Source: a virus. Taken from it: a stretch of DNA of 20,292 bases. This document shows positions 364-17,005 of the stretch, piece by piece. Each line of letters begins with the position of its first letter. Position 1 is the first letter of the stretch. Where the stretch lies: positions 1-20,292 of IMG/VR virus record IMGVR_UViG_3300009155_000337; one strand, written 5' to 3'. Both the position numbers and the translations under genes were made by a program. Below the pieces are notes generated by a model that was given only the letters and a program-made list of their open reading frames with translations, was not told the origin of the DNA and ran no database searches.

Positions 364-1050
364 ATGTCTGACTTAGTACCCGGTCCCCATTTCGATGGGA
401 TTGTAAGAGTTGTTAAGCTTATGAATGGCGACGAACTATTGGGCATAGTTCGTGATGCTACTCCTGATAGAATAGTATTAACTCTTCCAGCCAAATTAGA
501 AACTGCTCAATCTAGAGATAAAAACAATACAATAATAGAATATGTAAAACTTACAAATTATGCAATCAATGTTGTAAATTATGAGATTACAATTAATAGA
601 AATTCTATTCTGTATATGGCTCTTCCTATACCCGAATTAAACAAATTATATGAAGCTTTCTTTTTGGCTATGCAAAAAGATCCAGCTTCTATAGTTTCAA
701 ATAGCGATGAAGAAATTTTCACCGGACCAGAAGCCGGCCTTCAAATGTTGAATGAATTATTTAATAATGAAGATTTTGTTAATTTTGTAAATGATTTGAT
801 CGATAGTTTTGAAGGAGTGGAACTGGTATTGGATTCTGAAGATGAAGAAATCACAGAAGACGAAGAAACAGAACCAAATTTATTTTTAGAATCCCCTATA
901 AACGATTCTACCCCAGAAGAGGCTCCCAAGCCATCTAAGCGTAAGAAACGCACCAGAATGAATCCTGAAACTAATGATATACCTTTTAATCCCGAGGGGA
1001 ACCCAGATTCAGCAGAAAGTTGGTCTGATAATCCCGAAGATTATATTTAA
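364..1050 (+). CDS. Hypothetical protein with Sm/LSm-like N-terminal domain and acidic tail
   Basis: A 228-residue protein. Residues about 13-75 read like an Sm fold: an Sm1-like strand set (VKLMNGDELLGIVRD, followed by a hydrophobic strand and P) and, after a longer variable loop, an Sm2-like ITINRNSILYM. Residues about 140-190 are strongly acidic (EDEEITEDEETE), followed by a basic patch (KPSKRKKRTR) and a disordered Asn/Pro/Glu-rich end. Sm-like proteins usually form rings that bind RNA. That function is inferred here from pattern only; the tail makes a structural or DNA-mimic role possible too. The start is well supported by TAGGAGG 6 nt before the ATG. It is probably co-transcribed with the helicase and ends 4 bp inside the end of the convergent minus-strand gene. 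Confidence 0.8.
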   Translation: MSDLVPGPHFDGIVRVVKLMNGDELLGIVRDATPDRIVLTLPAKLETAQSRDKNNTIIEYVKLTNYAINVVNYEITINRNSILYMALPIPELNKLYEAFFLAMQKDPASIVSNSDEEIFTGPEAGLQMLNELFNNEDFVNFVNDLIDSFEGVELVLDSEDEEITEDEETEPNLFLESPINDSTPEEAPKPSKRKKRTRMNPETNDIPFNPEGNPDSAESWSDNPEDYI

Positions 1051-1571
1051 ACGCTTCCGGTCAAATCTTCAGAAGCATCGGGACAAATTTCATAATAAGA
1101 ATATTTAAATTTGCATGAAGCTTTTTGAATTATTGCATCTGAGCTATCGCTTTGGAACATTATACCACCCAAAGTAATTGGAATTATGTATTTAAAATTT
1201 ACGGTAGTTTTTATGCATCTAGTAACAGGATCATAAATTCCAAGTGATGCATTCCAGTGCCAAGTTTCATAAGGTATATTCTTTGTACTGTCAGATTCAA
1301 TGTTTGCCATATTTCTCATCCAAGAATATATGCTTTTCCAATTTTGCAATTCAGAGTCTACTATAAATTCAACTGTCAATGGTTCGTAACTAAATTGCAA
1401 AGTTGGAATCGGAATAGTTGTACCAAAAATCGTAGGTTGGGGATTTTCTGGAATACTGCAACCGGGTAAGTTTGCTTTTTGGCAATTCAATTCAAATTGA
1501 GTAGTACCTCTACCAAAAACCAAGGTAAAGTAACTATTGTAAAGTGGATTGATATTATTATTGCAACTCAT
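1047..1571 (-). CDS. Tail-tube-fold virion structural protein
   Basis: 174 residues. The N-terminal half follows a pattern common in large myoviruses: a strand ending in F-x-L, an aromatic/Cys strand, LPGCSIPE, then TIFGTTIPIP, SYEPLTVEFIVDSE and a WKSIYSWMRNM helix. This is the layout of tube-type proteins (T4 gp19 and gp54 fold), where the SIP-x-P loop and EPLTVEFIVD strand are the most conserved parts. Similarity to the two gp19-like proteins at 7783-8849 is only distant. It may be a tube initiator, terminator or minor tube component. It has six cysteines, unusual for this fold. It is the last gene of the minus-strand virion block. It is separated from the capsid gene by a terminator and preceded by its own GATAAATA box 5 nt before the ATG, with no Shine-Dalgarno, so it looks independently transcribed. 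Confidence 0.75.
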   Translation of the reverse strand: MSCNNNINPLYNSYFTLVFGRGTTQFELNCQKANLPGCSIPENPQPTIFGTTIPIPTLQFSYEPLTVEFIVDSELQNWKSIYSWMRNMANIESDSTKNIPYETWHWNASLGIYDPVTRCIKTTVNFKYIIPITLGGIMFQSDSSDAIIQKASCKFKYSYYEICPDASEDLTGSV

Positions 1572-1576
1572 AAAAT

Positions 1577-1584
1577 TATTTATC
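1577..1584 (-). promoter_or_regulatory. Candidate late promoter GATAAATA, 5 nt before ATG of the tube-like gene
   Basis: On the minus strand the sequence reads GATAAATA-ATTTT-ATG. The box matches 7 of 8 positions of the T4 late consensus. It lies just downstream of the capsid terminator hairpin, as expected for a fresh transcription unit. No Shine-Dalgarno lies between box and start codon. With T4 late-promoter spacing, transcription would begin at the A of the ATG. Confidence 0.6.
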
Positions 1585-1593
1585 CCAAAGCAA

Positions 1594-1621
1594 AAGTCCT
1601 CCCCATTTCTGGGGAGGACTT
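1594..1621 (-). terminator. Intrinsic terminator after the major capsid gene
   Basis: A perfect 11-bp GC-rich stem (AAGTCCTCCCC, 1594-1604, paired with GGGGAGGACTT, 1611-1621) with a 6-nt loop. Read on the minus strand it is followed by a short T run (CTTTT across 1596-1592). It starts 30 nt after the capsid stop codon. It is the clearest hairpin terminator I found in the window and fits the need to isolate the most highly expressed gene. Confidence 0.88.
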
Positions 1622-3180: not shown

Positions 3181-3188
3181 TATTTAGT
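3181..3188 (-). promoter_or_regulatory. Candidate late promoter ACTAAATA for the capsid gene
   Basis: The 48-nt gap between scaffold and capsid genes holds ACTAAATA on the minus strand, 29 nt before the capsid ATG, with AGGAG in between. CTAAATA is the form of the late box described for T4-like cyanophages. The same 8-mer occurs before the scaffold gene. Confidence 0.65.
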
Positions 3189-4270: not shown

Positions 4271-4278
4271 TATTTAGT
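4271..4278 (-). promoter_or_regulatory. Candidate late promoter ACTAAATA for the scaffold gene
   Basis: The 40-nt gap before the scaffold gene contains ACTAAATA on the minus strand, 21 nt before the ATG at 4249. The Shine-Dalgarno AAGGA (4260-4264) lies in a small AAGGATTCCTT palindrome between box and start. The 8-mer is identical to the one before the capsid gene. Confidence 0.65.
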
Positions 4279-10175: not shown

Positions 10176-10183
10176 TATTTAGC
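10176..10183 (-). promoter_or_regulatory. Candidate late promoter GCTAAATA for the sheath gene
   Basis: GCTAAATA on the minus strand lies in the 36-nt gap between the terminase stop and the sheath ATG, 25 nt before the start. The Shine-Dalgarno AAGGAC (10156-10161) stands between. The arrangement is the same as for the capsid and scaffold genes. Confidence 0.65.
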
Positions 10184-13603: not shown

Positions 13604-14434
13604 TTAGCCTATTAGTGGATCTACTGGTAGTTCTTGTGTTTTTAGTAGCATTATTTCTATTGCATCTAGTTCACGTGATGCTTCTTGCAGAATAGCTGGA
13701 GCATTCAATTGTGCACCACCGGGCAATGGTATACCTGCAAACTTTATTAAATTTTGAGCCCATTGTTTTTTCAATAACGCAGCATAATGACGTTGGAATA
13801 TACGATCATTCCAAACAGCTGGATAATAATCTGGATTTACTTGAACATATGCTTCAACCATTAAAAAGTTAATACTTTGTTCTTTAGATTTTTGTTTTTC
13901 TAAAAACAATCTATTGGTAGACTTTGTATATGTATACGATACTGGATAATTGAATACATCTTCAATTAATGAAAGGTATTGCATACTTTCCATATAGGTT
14001 GCCATAGGCCCTTGAGATAGACCACCTTGATTAAAGTAAAGACCAAAGAAATCAAATAATGTCATCTGATATCTAAGGTCAAACATATAGTCGCCTACTG
14101 TGCTGTTTGGACTATAAACTTTTGTAATAGTTCTAATATCGCTGGCAGCGGGCCAATAAGCGGTCAATCCACTATCCGATGATGTTACTCCTTGTGCACC
14201 AACTGCATATCCAAAAGTACTTACATCAAAATATTTTTGTGATATATTTGCAGCTGTAACTGGCACTACAAACTGTGCACGCTCATTAAAATCAAAATGA
14301 CGTTCGTGCATATATTCCAAAGATTCCTTTAAACGATCTTCGGCTTGTTGTGGGTCTACGTTTATTTGAATAACTGGAGCACCCAGTTTTCGAAACGTAT
14401 AATCAATAAATTCTTGTTTGGAAGCAATGGCCAT
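13604..14434 (-). CDS. 13: Neck protein (T4 gp13 family)
   Basis: 276 residues against 309 in T4. It is a head-completion/neck protein that works with gp14. Family features: an N-terminal helix ending YTFRKLGAPVIQINVDPQQ, RLKESLEYMHERHFD, a Phe/Tyr-rich central part (LFDFFGLYFNQGG, YMESMQYLSLIEDVF) and a C-terminal helix pair (YAALLKKQWAQNLIKFAGIP, then LPGGAQLNAPAILQEASREL) closely like T4 gp13, ending LPVDPLIG. The start codon is preceded by CATAAATA exactly 5 nt upstream and no Shine-Dalgarno, so this gene probably opens the neck/packaging operon with a leaderless message. There is a 31-nt gap to the zinc-ribbon gene upstream. Confidence 0.95.
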   Translation of the reverse strand: MAIASKQEFIDYTFRKLGAPVIQINVDPQQAEDRLKESLEYMHERHFDFNERAQFVVPVTAANISQKYFDVSTFGYAVGAQGVTSSDSGLTAYWPAASDIRTITKVYSPNSTVGDYMFDLRYQMTLFDFFGLYFNQGGLSQGPMATYMESMQYLSLIEDVFNYPVSYTYTKSTNRLFLEKQKSKEQSINFLMVEAYVQVNPDYYPAVWNDRIFQRHYAALLKKQWAQNLIKFAGIPLPGGAQLNAPAILQEASRELDAIEIMLLKTQELPVDPLIG

Positions 14435-14439
14435 ACAAT

Positions 14440-14447
14440 TATTTATG
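14440..14447 (-). promoter_or_regulatory. Candidate late promoter CATAAATA, 5 nt before ATG of gene 13
   Basis: The minus strand reads CATAAATA-ATTGT-ATG. The box matches 7 of 8 positions of the T4 late consensus and lies in the gap before gene 13. No Shine-Dalgarno is present between box and start or just upstream. Confidence 0.6.
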
Positions 14448-14465
14448 TATTTTGTTTAATAATGT

Positions 14466-14870
14466 TTATTCGGTTTTGCCAATTGTAACTTGAACAAGAC
14501 TCAATTCTTCTTTAGACATGGATTCAATTTGTTCTTTTCGTTCTTTTATTTCTGGCAAAGTAAAATTAGGATCATAATTTGTAAACCCCGGCATATGTAT
14601 TGGACAATTTAATACCGGATAATCTAACTTTGAATACTCGGAAGAATCTTTTAAAAGCCATGTATGAGGTTTATCACCACAACCACATCTTGCACAAAAG
14701 TGTTTATTTTTGTGATTTGGACTTAATTTTAAATATGGGCAGCGTGCAATTTTATTTTCAATACCAAAACACGAAACAACCCTTAATTGTTTGGTTTCTA
14801 TATCTGTTTTTTTATTTTCAAGTCCTCTGGATGCCAGAGAAGCAGCAAACATGACCATTTGTTTAATCAT
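14466..14870 (-). CDS. Small zinc-ribbon-like protein
   Basis: 134 residues. The N-terminal helix (MIKQMVMFAASLASRGLENK) is followed by KQLRVVSCFG and then a cysteine-rich part: Cys34, Cys44, the knuckle Cys59-x2-Cys62-x-Cys64 (FCARCGCGDK) and Cys89 in LNCPIH. The order of a helical N-terminus, a C-x(n)-C pair, a CxxCGC knuckle, a W-containing loop and a final Cys-Pro resembles small zinc-ribbon proteins often found among structural genes of marine T4-like phages. Its function is not known to me. A structural Zn site is likely; nucleic-acid binding or a baseplate assembly role are guesses. It lies between the baseplate I-like gene and gene 13. A weak box (ATGAAATA) lies 5 nt before its ATG, and no Shine-Dalgarno is seen. 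Confidence 0.8.
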   Translation of the reverse strand: MIKQMVMFAASLASRGLENKKTDIETKQLRVVSCFGIENKIARCPYLKLSPNHKNKHFCARCGCGDKPHTWLLKDSSEYSKLDYPVLNCPIHMPGFTNYDPNFTLPEIKERKEQIESMSKEELSLVQVTIGKTE

Positions 14871-14875
14871 AAAAA

Positions 14876-14883
14876 TATTTCAT
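14876..14883 (-). promoter_or_regulatory. Weak candidate late promoter ATGAAATA, 5 nt before ATG of the zinc-ribbon gene
   Basis: The minus strand reads ATGAAATA-TTTTT-ATG. The box is a poorer match (5 of 8 to TATAAATA) but has the same 5-nt spacing as the boxes before genes 13, 25 and the tube-like gene. It overlaps the last base of the upstream stop codon. Confidence 0.3.
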
Positions 14884-15536
14884 CAAAAAGTAGTATAGTT
14901 GACAACTATTCCAGCCGGTATAACATAAGTTTCTAAAAATGGTTTATATTGATTCAAATATGAACTTTGAGCAGAAGCCATACTTATATTCATTATGCAT
15001 GGAGATGATTGTTTAACAATCACATCATTCCACTGAAACCCAAACAAAGAACAAATTAAATATTTTATTGCTCTGGGGCTACCTTTAATGTTAAAATAAC
15101 TTTTTCTTGCACTTACAGAAAATTGTCTAACATTTGGTAATATATTTGATAGTGGTTCTTGAGAAAAATCAGCATTAGGAAAATAAAAATCTGTATATGC
15201 TTCTAAAAATAAAGAATTAGCATATAAAGGAACTCTTATATTTTCCCAATTTAATTGAGCCCCATAACCAAAATCTTGGCTCAAAAGCCATCTCATATAA
15301 TTTTTAATAATTGTGATTATAGCTACATTAGTAGGATTATTATTATATTCTTTAATTATCCATTGAGGAAATAAAGATTCTATAGTCAATTCGTCGCCTA
15401 ACCATGGTGTGTTATCAGTATTAAAAACACGAAATGTATTTTCTTGGTTGCTACCTGCAAGAAGAGCTATTCTATCTTTTAGATAGGAAATTTTTCCATT
15501 TAATGAAACAGGTTGATTATTAAATAGTAGAATCAT
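14883..15536 (-). CDS. Baseplate wedge protein, P2 gpI-like
   Basis: 217 residues. Residues about 145-180 carry the signature of the tail protein I family (Tail_P2_I): SARKSYFNIKGSPRAIKYL followed by a hydrophobic ICSLFGFQWNDVIV, corresponding to the usual hrrKGTP-A-l-l-l-G-i pattern. Upstream it has aromatic and Asn-rich segments (WLLSQDFGYGAQLNWENIRV). In P2, protein I (176 aa) is the third wedge protein with W and J; in T4 the equivalent part is held by the much larger gp7. The start overlaps the stop of the gp6/J-like gene by 4 nt, and that gene overlaps gp25 in the same way, giving a coupled W-J-I cassette. The C-terminal end (ETYVIPAGIVVNYTTF) is a strand typical of baseplate I-like ends. 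Confidence 0.65.
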   Translation of the reverse strand: MILLFNNQPVSLNGKISYLKDRIALLAGSNQENTFRVFNTDNTPWLGDELTIESLFPQWIIKEYNNNPTNVAIITIIKNYMRWLLSQDFGYGAQLNWENIRVPLYANSLFLEAYTDFYFPNADFSQEPLSNILPNVRQFSVSARKSYFNIKGSPRAIKYLICSLFGFQWNDVIVKQSSPCIMNISMASAQSSYLNQYKPFLETYVIPAGIVVNYTTF

Positions 15537-16612
15537 AAGCTATAAGTTAGACTAATACCAGCAACAGTCTTGTTGCTAAGATAATCTATTAATAAAGATT
15601 GATTAGTTGTAGACAAACCAGAAACATAAATTTTAACAGTACCCGGATTACTTGGATCATTTTGAACAGTAATTAATGATGAATCCGTTGTTCCGTCTAA
15701 GCCTGAACTTAAAATTGCATTAACATAGTCGGAAATAGTCACACATCTGTTTTGACCTGTAGCATTAAATAATAATTTATATCTTGCAAGTTCTACGGAA
15801 ATCTGATCATATCCACCACTTGGAACTGAAGCAGAAAGAAAAGACACATCAGGTCTCTGAACAACTGTCGAATTGTTTGCAGATATTCCATTTGAAACTA
15901 CTGCTTTAATTAATACAGTACTTGCGGTTGTAATTGTTTGTGCCGAAGGAAAATTATTTGTTACAATATATCCTTCGGGTCCATTAATTACAGTAAAAGT
16001 TGTCTGATTACCGGTACTGGCAGGAGCATCTTGCTCTACTTTTGTCCATGTGGTAACAATAGGTGAATTAACAGGTGCTGTATAGAATTTAATTGTTCTT
16101 GGATCTACTGTATATGGAAGCTGGCATGATTGCGTCTTATAATCATAATTTGTATAACTTACAACTTGTGTCCCGGAATATAAAGTAATGGTAGCATCTC
16201 TATTTGGGTTTATCGCATCAATATTAAAAAAGTATAAATTACCACCATTTGTAGCTGTTGCTAAAAATGTAGTATATTCTTGTAATGTATTTCCAGTAGT
16301 AATAATACTTCCTACAGTAGAAGCTCCTTGTGTAGGTGTAAGCATTACAGAATTGTTGGCTGCAATACCTAATAAACTTTGTAATATTGTAGTTGTAGTG
16401 GCAAAAGAATTTATATAACCAAATTGAGAATAAACTCCATTATAAGCAGTAACAGTTGCCAACATATTTATTAATAAATTGGTAGTACTGGCATTATTAT
16501 CGTAATCTAAATCGGATAAATCGGGTTGCTGTTTAAAAAATGATACTAAAGATGTTTTTATGTCATCAAAATCCAAAGAAGAAACATCAAGATTTTGTAA
16601 TTGATACGTCAT
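15533..16612 (-). CDS. 6: Baseplate wedge protein, gp6/gpJ family (short)
   Basis: 359 residues, against 660 for T4 gp6 and about 300 for P2 gpJ. It forms the wedge dimer core of the baseplate. N-terminal pattern: DFDDIKTSLVSFFKQQPDLSD then DYDNNASTTNLLINMLATVT and AYNGVYSQFGYINSFATTTT, the helical start shared by gp6 proteins. The central part is beta-rich. The C-terminal domain (about 255-359) has the J-type GGYDQISVELARYKLLFNAT, QNRCVTISDYVNAILSSG, and a terminal ferredoxin-like strand-helix (LLIDYLSNKTVAGISLTY). The short form lacks much of the middle of T4 gp6. It overlaps both gp25 and the I-like gene by 4 nt. Confidence 0.85.
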   Translation of the reverse strand: MTYQLQNLDVSSLDFDDIKTSLVSFFKQQPDLSDLDYDNNASTTNLLINMLATVTAYNGVYSQFGYINSFATTTTILQSLLGIAANNSVMLTPTQGASTVGSIITTGNTLQEYTTFLATATNGGNLYFFNIDAINPNRDATITLYSGTQVVSYTNYDYKTQSCQLPYTVDPRTIKFYTAPVNSPIVTTWTKVEQDAPASTGNQTTFTVINGPEGYIVTNNFPSAQTITTASTVLIKAVVSNGISANNSTVVQRPDVSFLSASVPSGGYDQISVELARYKLLFNATGQNRCVTISDYVNAILSSGLDGTTDSSLITVQNDPSNPGTVKIYVSGLSTTNQSLLIDYLSNKTVAGISLTYSL

Positions 16613-16992
16613 TGTAATTGAACCTCTACATAGGTACTTGCTTTATTTTGTGTATTTATTCCATCAGTTATCAAATATGTAACCAAAAGTTGAATAACAC
16701 TATCAGACATATAAAGTATTTGCACTTGTACATTTGCCAATTCTGGTATAGCTGCATAAATGTATGCAGATAAACTAAGTTCAAGAGCACCATTATTTGC
16801 TTGACCATTGAAAATATATTTAAAATAATCGGATCCAAGATCCATATTTGAAACTAATTCACCTTTTTGAGTTTTACAAATAGCTGTTATATACTGTGAA
16901 TATGCATTAAAACCACTAACCACTCCCAAATCTTTATTGGATGAAATAGTAGATACTTTTTCTAATAAGATTGAGAAATCTTTTATTGCCAT
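16609..16992 (-). CDS. 25: Baseplate wedge protein, gp25/W family
   Basis: 127 residues, close to T4 gp25 (132 aa). gp25 is a lysozyme-like-named but structural wedge protein that links the wedge to the first sheath ring. The pattern fits the GPW_gp25 family: a helix followed by T-x-x-GE (KTQKGELVSN), then MDLGSDYFKYIF in place of the usual P-x-FG-s-x-L-x-x-L-F, a helix ALELSLSAYIYAAIPELANV with the typical P-x-I/L, and two closing strands (QVQILYMSD, IQLLVTYLI). The Arg of the usual E-x-R is not seen. It overlaps the following gp6/J gene by 4 nt. The only perfect TATAAATA in the located set lies 5 nt before its ATG, without a Shine-Dalgarno, so it probably opens the wedge transcription unit. 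Confidence 0.78.
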   Translation of the reverse strand: MAIKDFSILLEKVSTISSNKDLGVVSGFNAYSQYITAICKTQKGELVSNMDLGSDYFKYIFNGQANNGALELSLSAYIYAAIPELANVQVQILYMSDSVIQLLVTYLITDGINTQNKASTYVEVQLQ

Positions 16993-16997
16993 CAGAA

Positions 16998-17005
16998 TAT
17001 TTATA
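16998..17005 (-). promoter_or_regulatory. Late promoter TATAAATA, 5 nt before ATG of gene 25
   Basis: A perfect 8/8 match to the T4 late promoter consensus lies in the 13-nt gap after the upstream gene, read TATAAATA-TTCTG-ATG. There is no Shine-Dalgarno before the start codon. Confidence 0.75.

Follow-up and report, generated by a model that had tools for sequence, protein, structure and literature searches.

Do some virion genes of this phage begin their late mRNAs at the start codon itself? The question arises because a TAAATA-type box stands exactly 5 nt ahead of the ATG at several genes of the 20.3-kb virus record analyzed here, which we call the window and which represents part of the genome of an uncultured T4-like phage. 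Its minus strand carries a cluster of T4-type virion genes, in the order two large genes, a tail-protein gene, gp25, gp6, an unassigned gene in the gp53 position, a zinc-ribbon gene, gp13, gp14, gp15, gp16, gp17, gp18, two gp19-like genes, gp20, a small gene, gp21, a further gene, gp22, gp23 and a tail-tube-family gene. PHROG matches back the names of the tail tube, gp6, gp25 and gp13; the remaining names come from gene order and homology to annotated phages. The window has no close cultured relative (at most ~34% for gp13 among the matches listed, ~50% for the terminase), and no relative was found in the GTDB contigs that were searched for a clue to the host. For comparison, 80 related IMG/VR loci were retrieved with gp13 as the query, and 15 long related contigs totaling 0.87 Mb were taken as the clade set. 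Start calls in these IMG/VR contigs are heuristic, and the contigs are partly redundant, duplicates being dropped only if their sequence context was identical.

The boxes with a 5-nt spacer, and the genes behind them, are the following.

16998..17005, minus strand: putative late-promoter box TATAAATA, spacer TTCTG, 5 nt to the gp25 ATG; leaderless class, from sequence reading and orthologue conservation.
16609..16992, minus strand: gp25 baseplate-wedge gene (PHROG phrog_43); mRNA 5' end predicted at the gene start.
14440..14447, minus strand: putative late-promoter box CATAAATA, spacer ATTGT, 5 nt to the gp13 ATG; leaderless class, from sequence reading and orthologue conservation.
13604..14434, minus strand: gp13 neck (head-tail adaptor) gene (PHROG phrog_211); predicted leaderless; heads the 13-14-15-16-17 operon.
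1577..1584, minus strand: putative late-promoter box GATAAATA, spacer ATTTT, 5 nt to the tail-tube-like gene; leaderless class, from sequence reading and orthologues.
1047..1571, minus strand: tail-tube-family gene (PHROG phrog_45); predicted leaderless.
14876..14883, minus strand: ATGAAATA-TTTTT-ATG before the zinc-ribbon gene; unconserved, probably not a promoter.
1595..1620, minus strand: hairpin AGTCCTCCCC-AGAAAT-GGGGAGGACT followed by TTTGCTTT; read directly from the sequence, not among the hits of the scan.

All four strings of box, 5-nt spacer (N5) and ATG that the initial annotation had reported are present, and the lack of a Shine-Dalgarno (SD) sequence at all four genes is borne out. 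As late boxes, however, only those of gp25, gp13 and the tail-tube gene hold: TAAATA lies exactly 5 nt ahead of the ATG at each, they are the only three clean N5 sites in the window, and they are kept in relatives. The zinc-ribbon box shares bases with the stop codon that ends the preceding gene; outside the window, it is seen only as a degraded TTGAGATA in the closest relative and is missing from the other 40 distinct orthologue upstreams. This box is therefore probably a chance occurrence, and we reject the zinc-ribbon gene as a fourth promoter. Separately, the strong terminator-like hairpin behind gp23 directly adjoins the tail-tube late promoter on its upstream side, and it is likely to be the terminator of the gp23 unit.

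Since TAAATA near an ATG is common in AT-rich DNA, such strings might arise by chance, and the raw count in the window alone says little against this: 3 TAAATA-N5-ATG sites are found where 0.9 are expected, and at least 3 appear in 9 of 100 dinucleotide shuffles, the zinc-ribbon site being a case of this kind. Given the 22 gene starts in the window, however, the evidence is strong, with 0.028 N5 boxes expected (P ~4e-6). The shuffle control that had been proposed is weak on the window alone, and it is the relatives that decide for a signal. Among distinct orthologue upstreams from the related IMG/VR loci, gp25 has its box at N5 in 27 of 36, at N6 in 4 and at N7 in 5, with none boxless, and gp13 has it at N5 in 24 of 30 and at N8 in 5, with 1 boxless. 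In the 15 clade contigs, the leaderless arrangement is found at gp13 in 11/11, at gp25 in 12/12 and at the tail tube in 10/10 (distinct orthologues for the tail tube). The genes downstream of gp13 in its operon are without a box, and across the related loci operon-internal genes almost never have one close to the start. An SD motif occurs in 1% of N5 genes.

In the 15 clade contigs, distinct TAAATA-Nk-ATG occurrences number 2-3 at N4, 83 at N5, 22 at N6, 30 at N7 and 11 at N8, and smaller rises are seen at spacers of 16, 21-23 and 29; permuted hexamers (n = 14) average ~8.5 at N5. A count over relatives had been named beforehand as the test that could refute the fixed spacer, and its outcome strongly favors that spacer: close to the ATG, N5 alone shows a sharp peak. 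The signal is specific for ATG, which was found 83 and 119 times in two counts, against 4 and 5 for GTG and 3 and 1 for TTG. In a stretch of a 516-kb contig with a GC content of 45%, 23 sites fall at N5, and each of the other spacers up to 20 has 0-2, so that AT-richness is no explanation; in a 185-kb contig, the counts are 49 at N5 and 19 at N6. The N5 spike recurs in other gp55-bearing uncultured phages, on contigs of up to 516 kb and with sharper histograms than in the clade; these contigs were picked for holding a divergent N5 pair, which builds one pair each, and not the rest, into their spike. The permuted hexamers, the other spacers, the other start codons, the conserved orthologues and the 45% GC contig together rule out chance at the three main sites, leaving it a practically nil probability, and they uphold the earlier view that AT-richness alone is insufficient.

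The spike is absent in T4, KVP40 and cyanophages, and ten reference T4-like late regions pooled have 5 of 125 boxes at N5, with a mode of 27-28. Pattern counts in PA5oct, Mel-JY01, KVP40, Aeh1 and the Campylobacter phages PC5 and CC_R7 are at or slightly above those of a reversed-pattern control, unlike those of the uncultured groups; pelagiphage HTVC008M has 14 against 4 in this control. Two single loci may be mentioned. In the cultured Pelagibacter phage Mosig, the tail-tube gene after gp23 has GATAAATA-TTAGT-ATG (L084 22699-22714), like the tail-tube gene of the window. In P-SSM4, TATAAATA-CCTAT-ATG is found where the gene for plastoquinol terminal oxidase is annotated to start (L091 23298-23313), and this gene is possibly a single leaderless late gene in a cyanophage.

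The initial annotation had taken a fixed 5-nt spacer in four of four cases as its argument. That count was selective, because three other virion genes of the window have the box ahead of SD-bearing leaders.

10176..10181, minus strand: putative late box TAAATA of gp18, 25-nt leader with AAGGA; leadered class; box and SD in 11/11 clade orthologues.
4271..4276, minus strand: putative late box TAAATA of gp22, 21-nt leader with AAGGA; leadered class; box and SD in 8/8 clade orthologues.
3181..3186, minus strand: putative late box TAAATA of gp23 (major capsid), 29-nt leader with AGGAG; leadered class; box and SD in 8/8 clade orthologues.

In gp18 and gp22 orthologues, the box is always 15-25 nt ahead of the ATG, with AAGG(A) in between. 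An SD-bearing leader, which is usual for T4-type late genes in isolates but does not define the promoter, is thus lacking at gp25, gp13 and the tail tube and present at gp18, gp22 and gp23, and as we read the sequence, two late classes coexist in this phage, a leaderless and an SD-leadered one.

Based on these findings, we propose that gp25, gp13 and the tail-tube gene are very probably expressed as leaderless mRNAs from gp55-type late promoters. The late promoters would be of the T4 type, consisting of a single -10-like box (NATAAATA/TCTAAATA) that is read by a late sigma factor of the gp55 family, and the box would be placed such that the A of the ATG is +1. The three genes would then be translated from mRNAs that have no leader (0 nt; in relatives, 0-3 nt), and ribosomes would enter at the AUG that forms the 5' end, while gp18, gp22 and gp23 would keep ordinary SD leaders, with the box 21-29 nt ahead of the ATG. 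A box of the NATAAATA/CTAAATA type does stand ahead of virion genes in the window, and a gp55-family sigma factor is found in relatives: 10 of the 15 clade contigs have a homologue (E ~2e-40 or better), as do 15 of 26 contigs that contain divergent pairs, compared with 0 of 14 control genomes. The gp55 gene is not within the window itself. We infer from the sequence the use of the box by the gp55 polymerase, the exact +1 and the leaderless translation.

The placement of +1 follows from geometry. In T4, the late box is at -13 to -6 (PMC1524935); together with a purine peak at offset 5 in the clade contigs, where a purine is found in 82% of the leadered promoters and 78% of those with N6-N8, the N5 spacing puts +1 on the A of the ATG. 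The predicted +1 thus lies at or within ~3 nt of an AUG, which is strongly preferred. A neighboring reading is that the promoters are real but that +1 is 1-3 nt upstream of the ATG, so that the leaders are very short rather than absent. T4 late starts could vary by a base, and spacers of N6-N8 occur in some relatives; these would have leaders of 1-3 nt, so strict leaderlessness does not extend to all of them. However, a generally upstream +1 should tolerate N4 and N3, yet both are nearly empty, and the purine peak at offset 5 also speaks against it. The sharp lower edge at N5 is instead expected if transcription starts at the A, since shorter spacers would cut off the AUG. We therefore give the very short leaders a small probability at the three genes and retain +1 on the A, a placement that the earlier leaderless reading shares and that is drawn from T4 geometry; the N5 peak, the ATG specificity, the conservation at gp13 and gp25 and a second promoter type at N6 all support that reading.

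This second type resembles sigma70 promoters (-35 and TA[CT]AAT at a spacing of 16-18). In the clade contigs, the ATG follows it at N6 27 times and at any other spacer at most 4 times, and in other groups 14 times at N6; the reference sequences used here consist mostly of late DNA and are not a fair control. Because N6 after the -10 hexamer corresponds to the canonical +1, the ATG would be at +1 for these promoters too. L141 (G014), L121 (G007), L106 (G002) and L138 (G013) contain series of short genes in which every gene has a -35/TACAAT promoter of its own and the ATG exactly 6 nt after the -10; the short genes with such promoters are probably leaderless early genes, their earliness being judged from the promoter type.

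A different explanation would make the box an A/U-rich translation-initiation element of the SD-less Bacteroidetes type and no promoter, with transcription beginning further upstream. It would account for the facts that the box genes are without SD and that the box occupies the SD position. Against it, the box is also found at a distance of 15-31 nt ahead of genes that do have an SD, it is almost never seen at operon-internal genes, its lower edge falls exactly at N5, a gp55 homologue is present, and Vibrio phage Va1, described below, has a palindromic box together with separate SD leaders. Moreover, with two promoter types each at its own canonical spacing, a translation element is hard to uphold. 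We regard this explanation as improbable, and prefer late promoters that start transcription at the ATG.

Some genes of the leaderless class stand back to back across one palindromic box. In an exact scan, CAT-N5-TATTTATAAATA-N5-ATG was found in 113 viral contigs, compared with 12 for N6, 14 for N7 and 5 for a scrambled palindrome with N5. In 101 of the 113 contigs, both sides of the palindrome have open reading frames that span 40 aa or more; these make up ~25 different gene pairs from 38 protein families. Divergent pairs that share TATTTATAAATA, with both ATGs 5 nt off, are exemplified by L121 10797-10824, L129 402-429 and L117 15601-15628, with ~110 other viral contigs. A symmetric -10-like element between divergent genes is thus present in viral contigs outside the window, and none was found in the window; the shared TATTTATAAATA box probably acts as a promoter in both directions, giving two leaderless mRNAs. 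Many N-termini of the pairs have a form (MKxxEFIxE) that we take to resemble T4 capsid-targeting sequences. In L204, L174, L233 and L245, one member of a divergent leaderless pair resembles Fe/Mn superoxide dismutase genes; its product shares ~37% identity with a protein of the PA5oct group of jumbo phages that is annotated as sodB in Callisto.

In the cultured Vibrio phage Va1, the TATTTATAAATA palindrome lies between gp14 and gp20 (portal) and between gp13 and a head-completion gene (L346 4560-4670 and 5800-5900), with SD leaders on both sides. In the uncultured locus L201, the orthologous gp14 and gp20 genes lack leaders, with N5 on each side. Its gp14 and gp20 proteins are 60% and 66% identical to those of Va1 and collinear from Met1, which supports the start codons. 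Since Va1 is leadered and L201 leaderless over one palindrome, promoter and leader are separable.

More speculatively, and with rather more doubt than confidence, a broad uncultured part of the T4 superfamily (with contigs of at least 516 kb) may run a genome-wide leaderless program, in which early sigma70-type and late gp55 promoters both place the ATG at +1 and palindromic late boxes each fire two leaderless virion genes; the whole lineage would then have moved away from SD initiation as leaders were lost, perhaps with the help of a ribosome modified by the phage. A phage-encoded ribosomal protein bS21 as a necessary partner is unsupported, as none of the 15 clade contigs encodes it. It does occur in several large phages that show the leaderless arrangement (G016, G024, G025, G029, G035, Mosig and Melnitz); the clade of the window is without it.

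Gene starts are normally predicted from SD signals; if the mRNAs start at the AUG, the exact positions of many starts and promoters could be taken from the sequence. A natural experiment on leader loss or gain is offered by the gp14/gp20 pair, which has leaders in Va1 and none in L201 over one promoter. It also becomes testable why virion genes split into a leaderless set (gp13, gp25, tail tube) and an SD-leadered one (gp18 sheath, gp22 scaffold, gp23 capsid), a split that possibly sets protein dosage, and whether such phages favor leaderless initiation on host ribosomes.

In the open literature, which omits much phage transcriptome work (including, we expect, key studies of Syn9 and phiKZ), we found no report of leaderless gp55-dependent late mRNAs. 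The boxes described here are like T4 late promoters (gp55/gp33/gp45) in having TATAAATA or NATAAATA/CTAAATA without a -35 element upstream of virion genes. They differ from those of T4, Syn9, P-SSM4, S-RIM32, PX29, Vi01 and others, in which the box is mostly 20-30 nt from the ATG with an SD leader, whereas here it is 5 nt away. Single leaderless cases in phages include lambda cI transcribed from PRM. Leaderless mRNAs of bacteria, for example mycobacteria, arise where promoter spacing makes the AUG the 5' end and SD is absent (PMC4633059). Unlike in these cases, the arrangement here recurs at a whole class of virion genes in T4-superfamily phages whose genomes also have leadered late genes, and this class is apparently read by a phage late sigma factor. 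Bidirectional promoters based on -10 symmetry, with one symmetric -10-like element and divergent starts on either side, are known (Warman and Grainger; PMC12825309); here, the element is a perfect palindrome TATTTATAAATA of the gp55 box in T4-like phages, with both start codons exactly 5 nt off. The cultured Vibrio phages Va1 and pv27 have the same palindrome between divergent gp14/gp20 and gp13/head-completion genes, but there both genes carry SD leaders.
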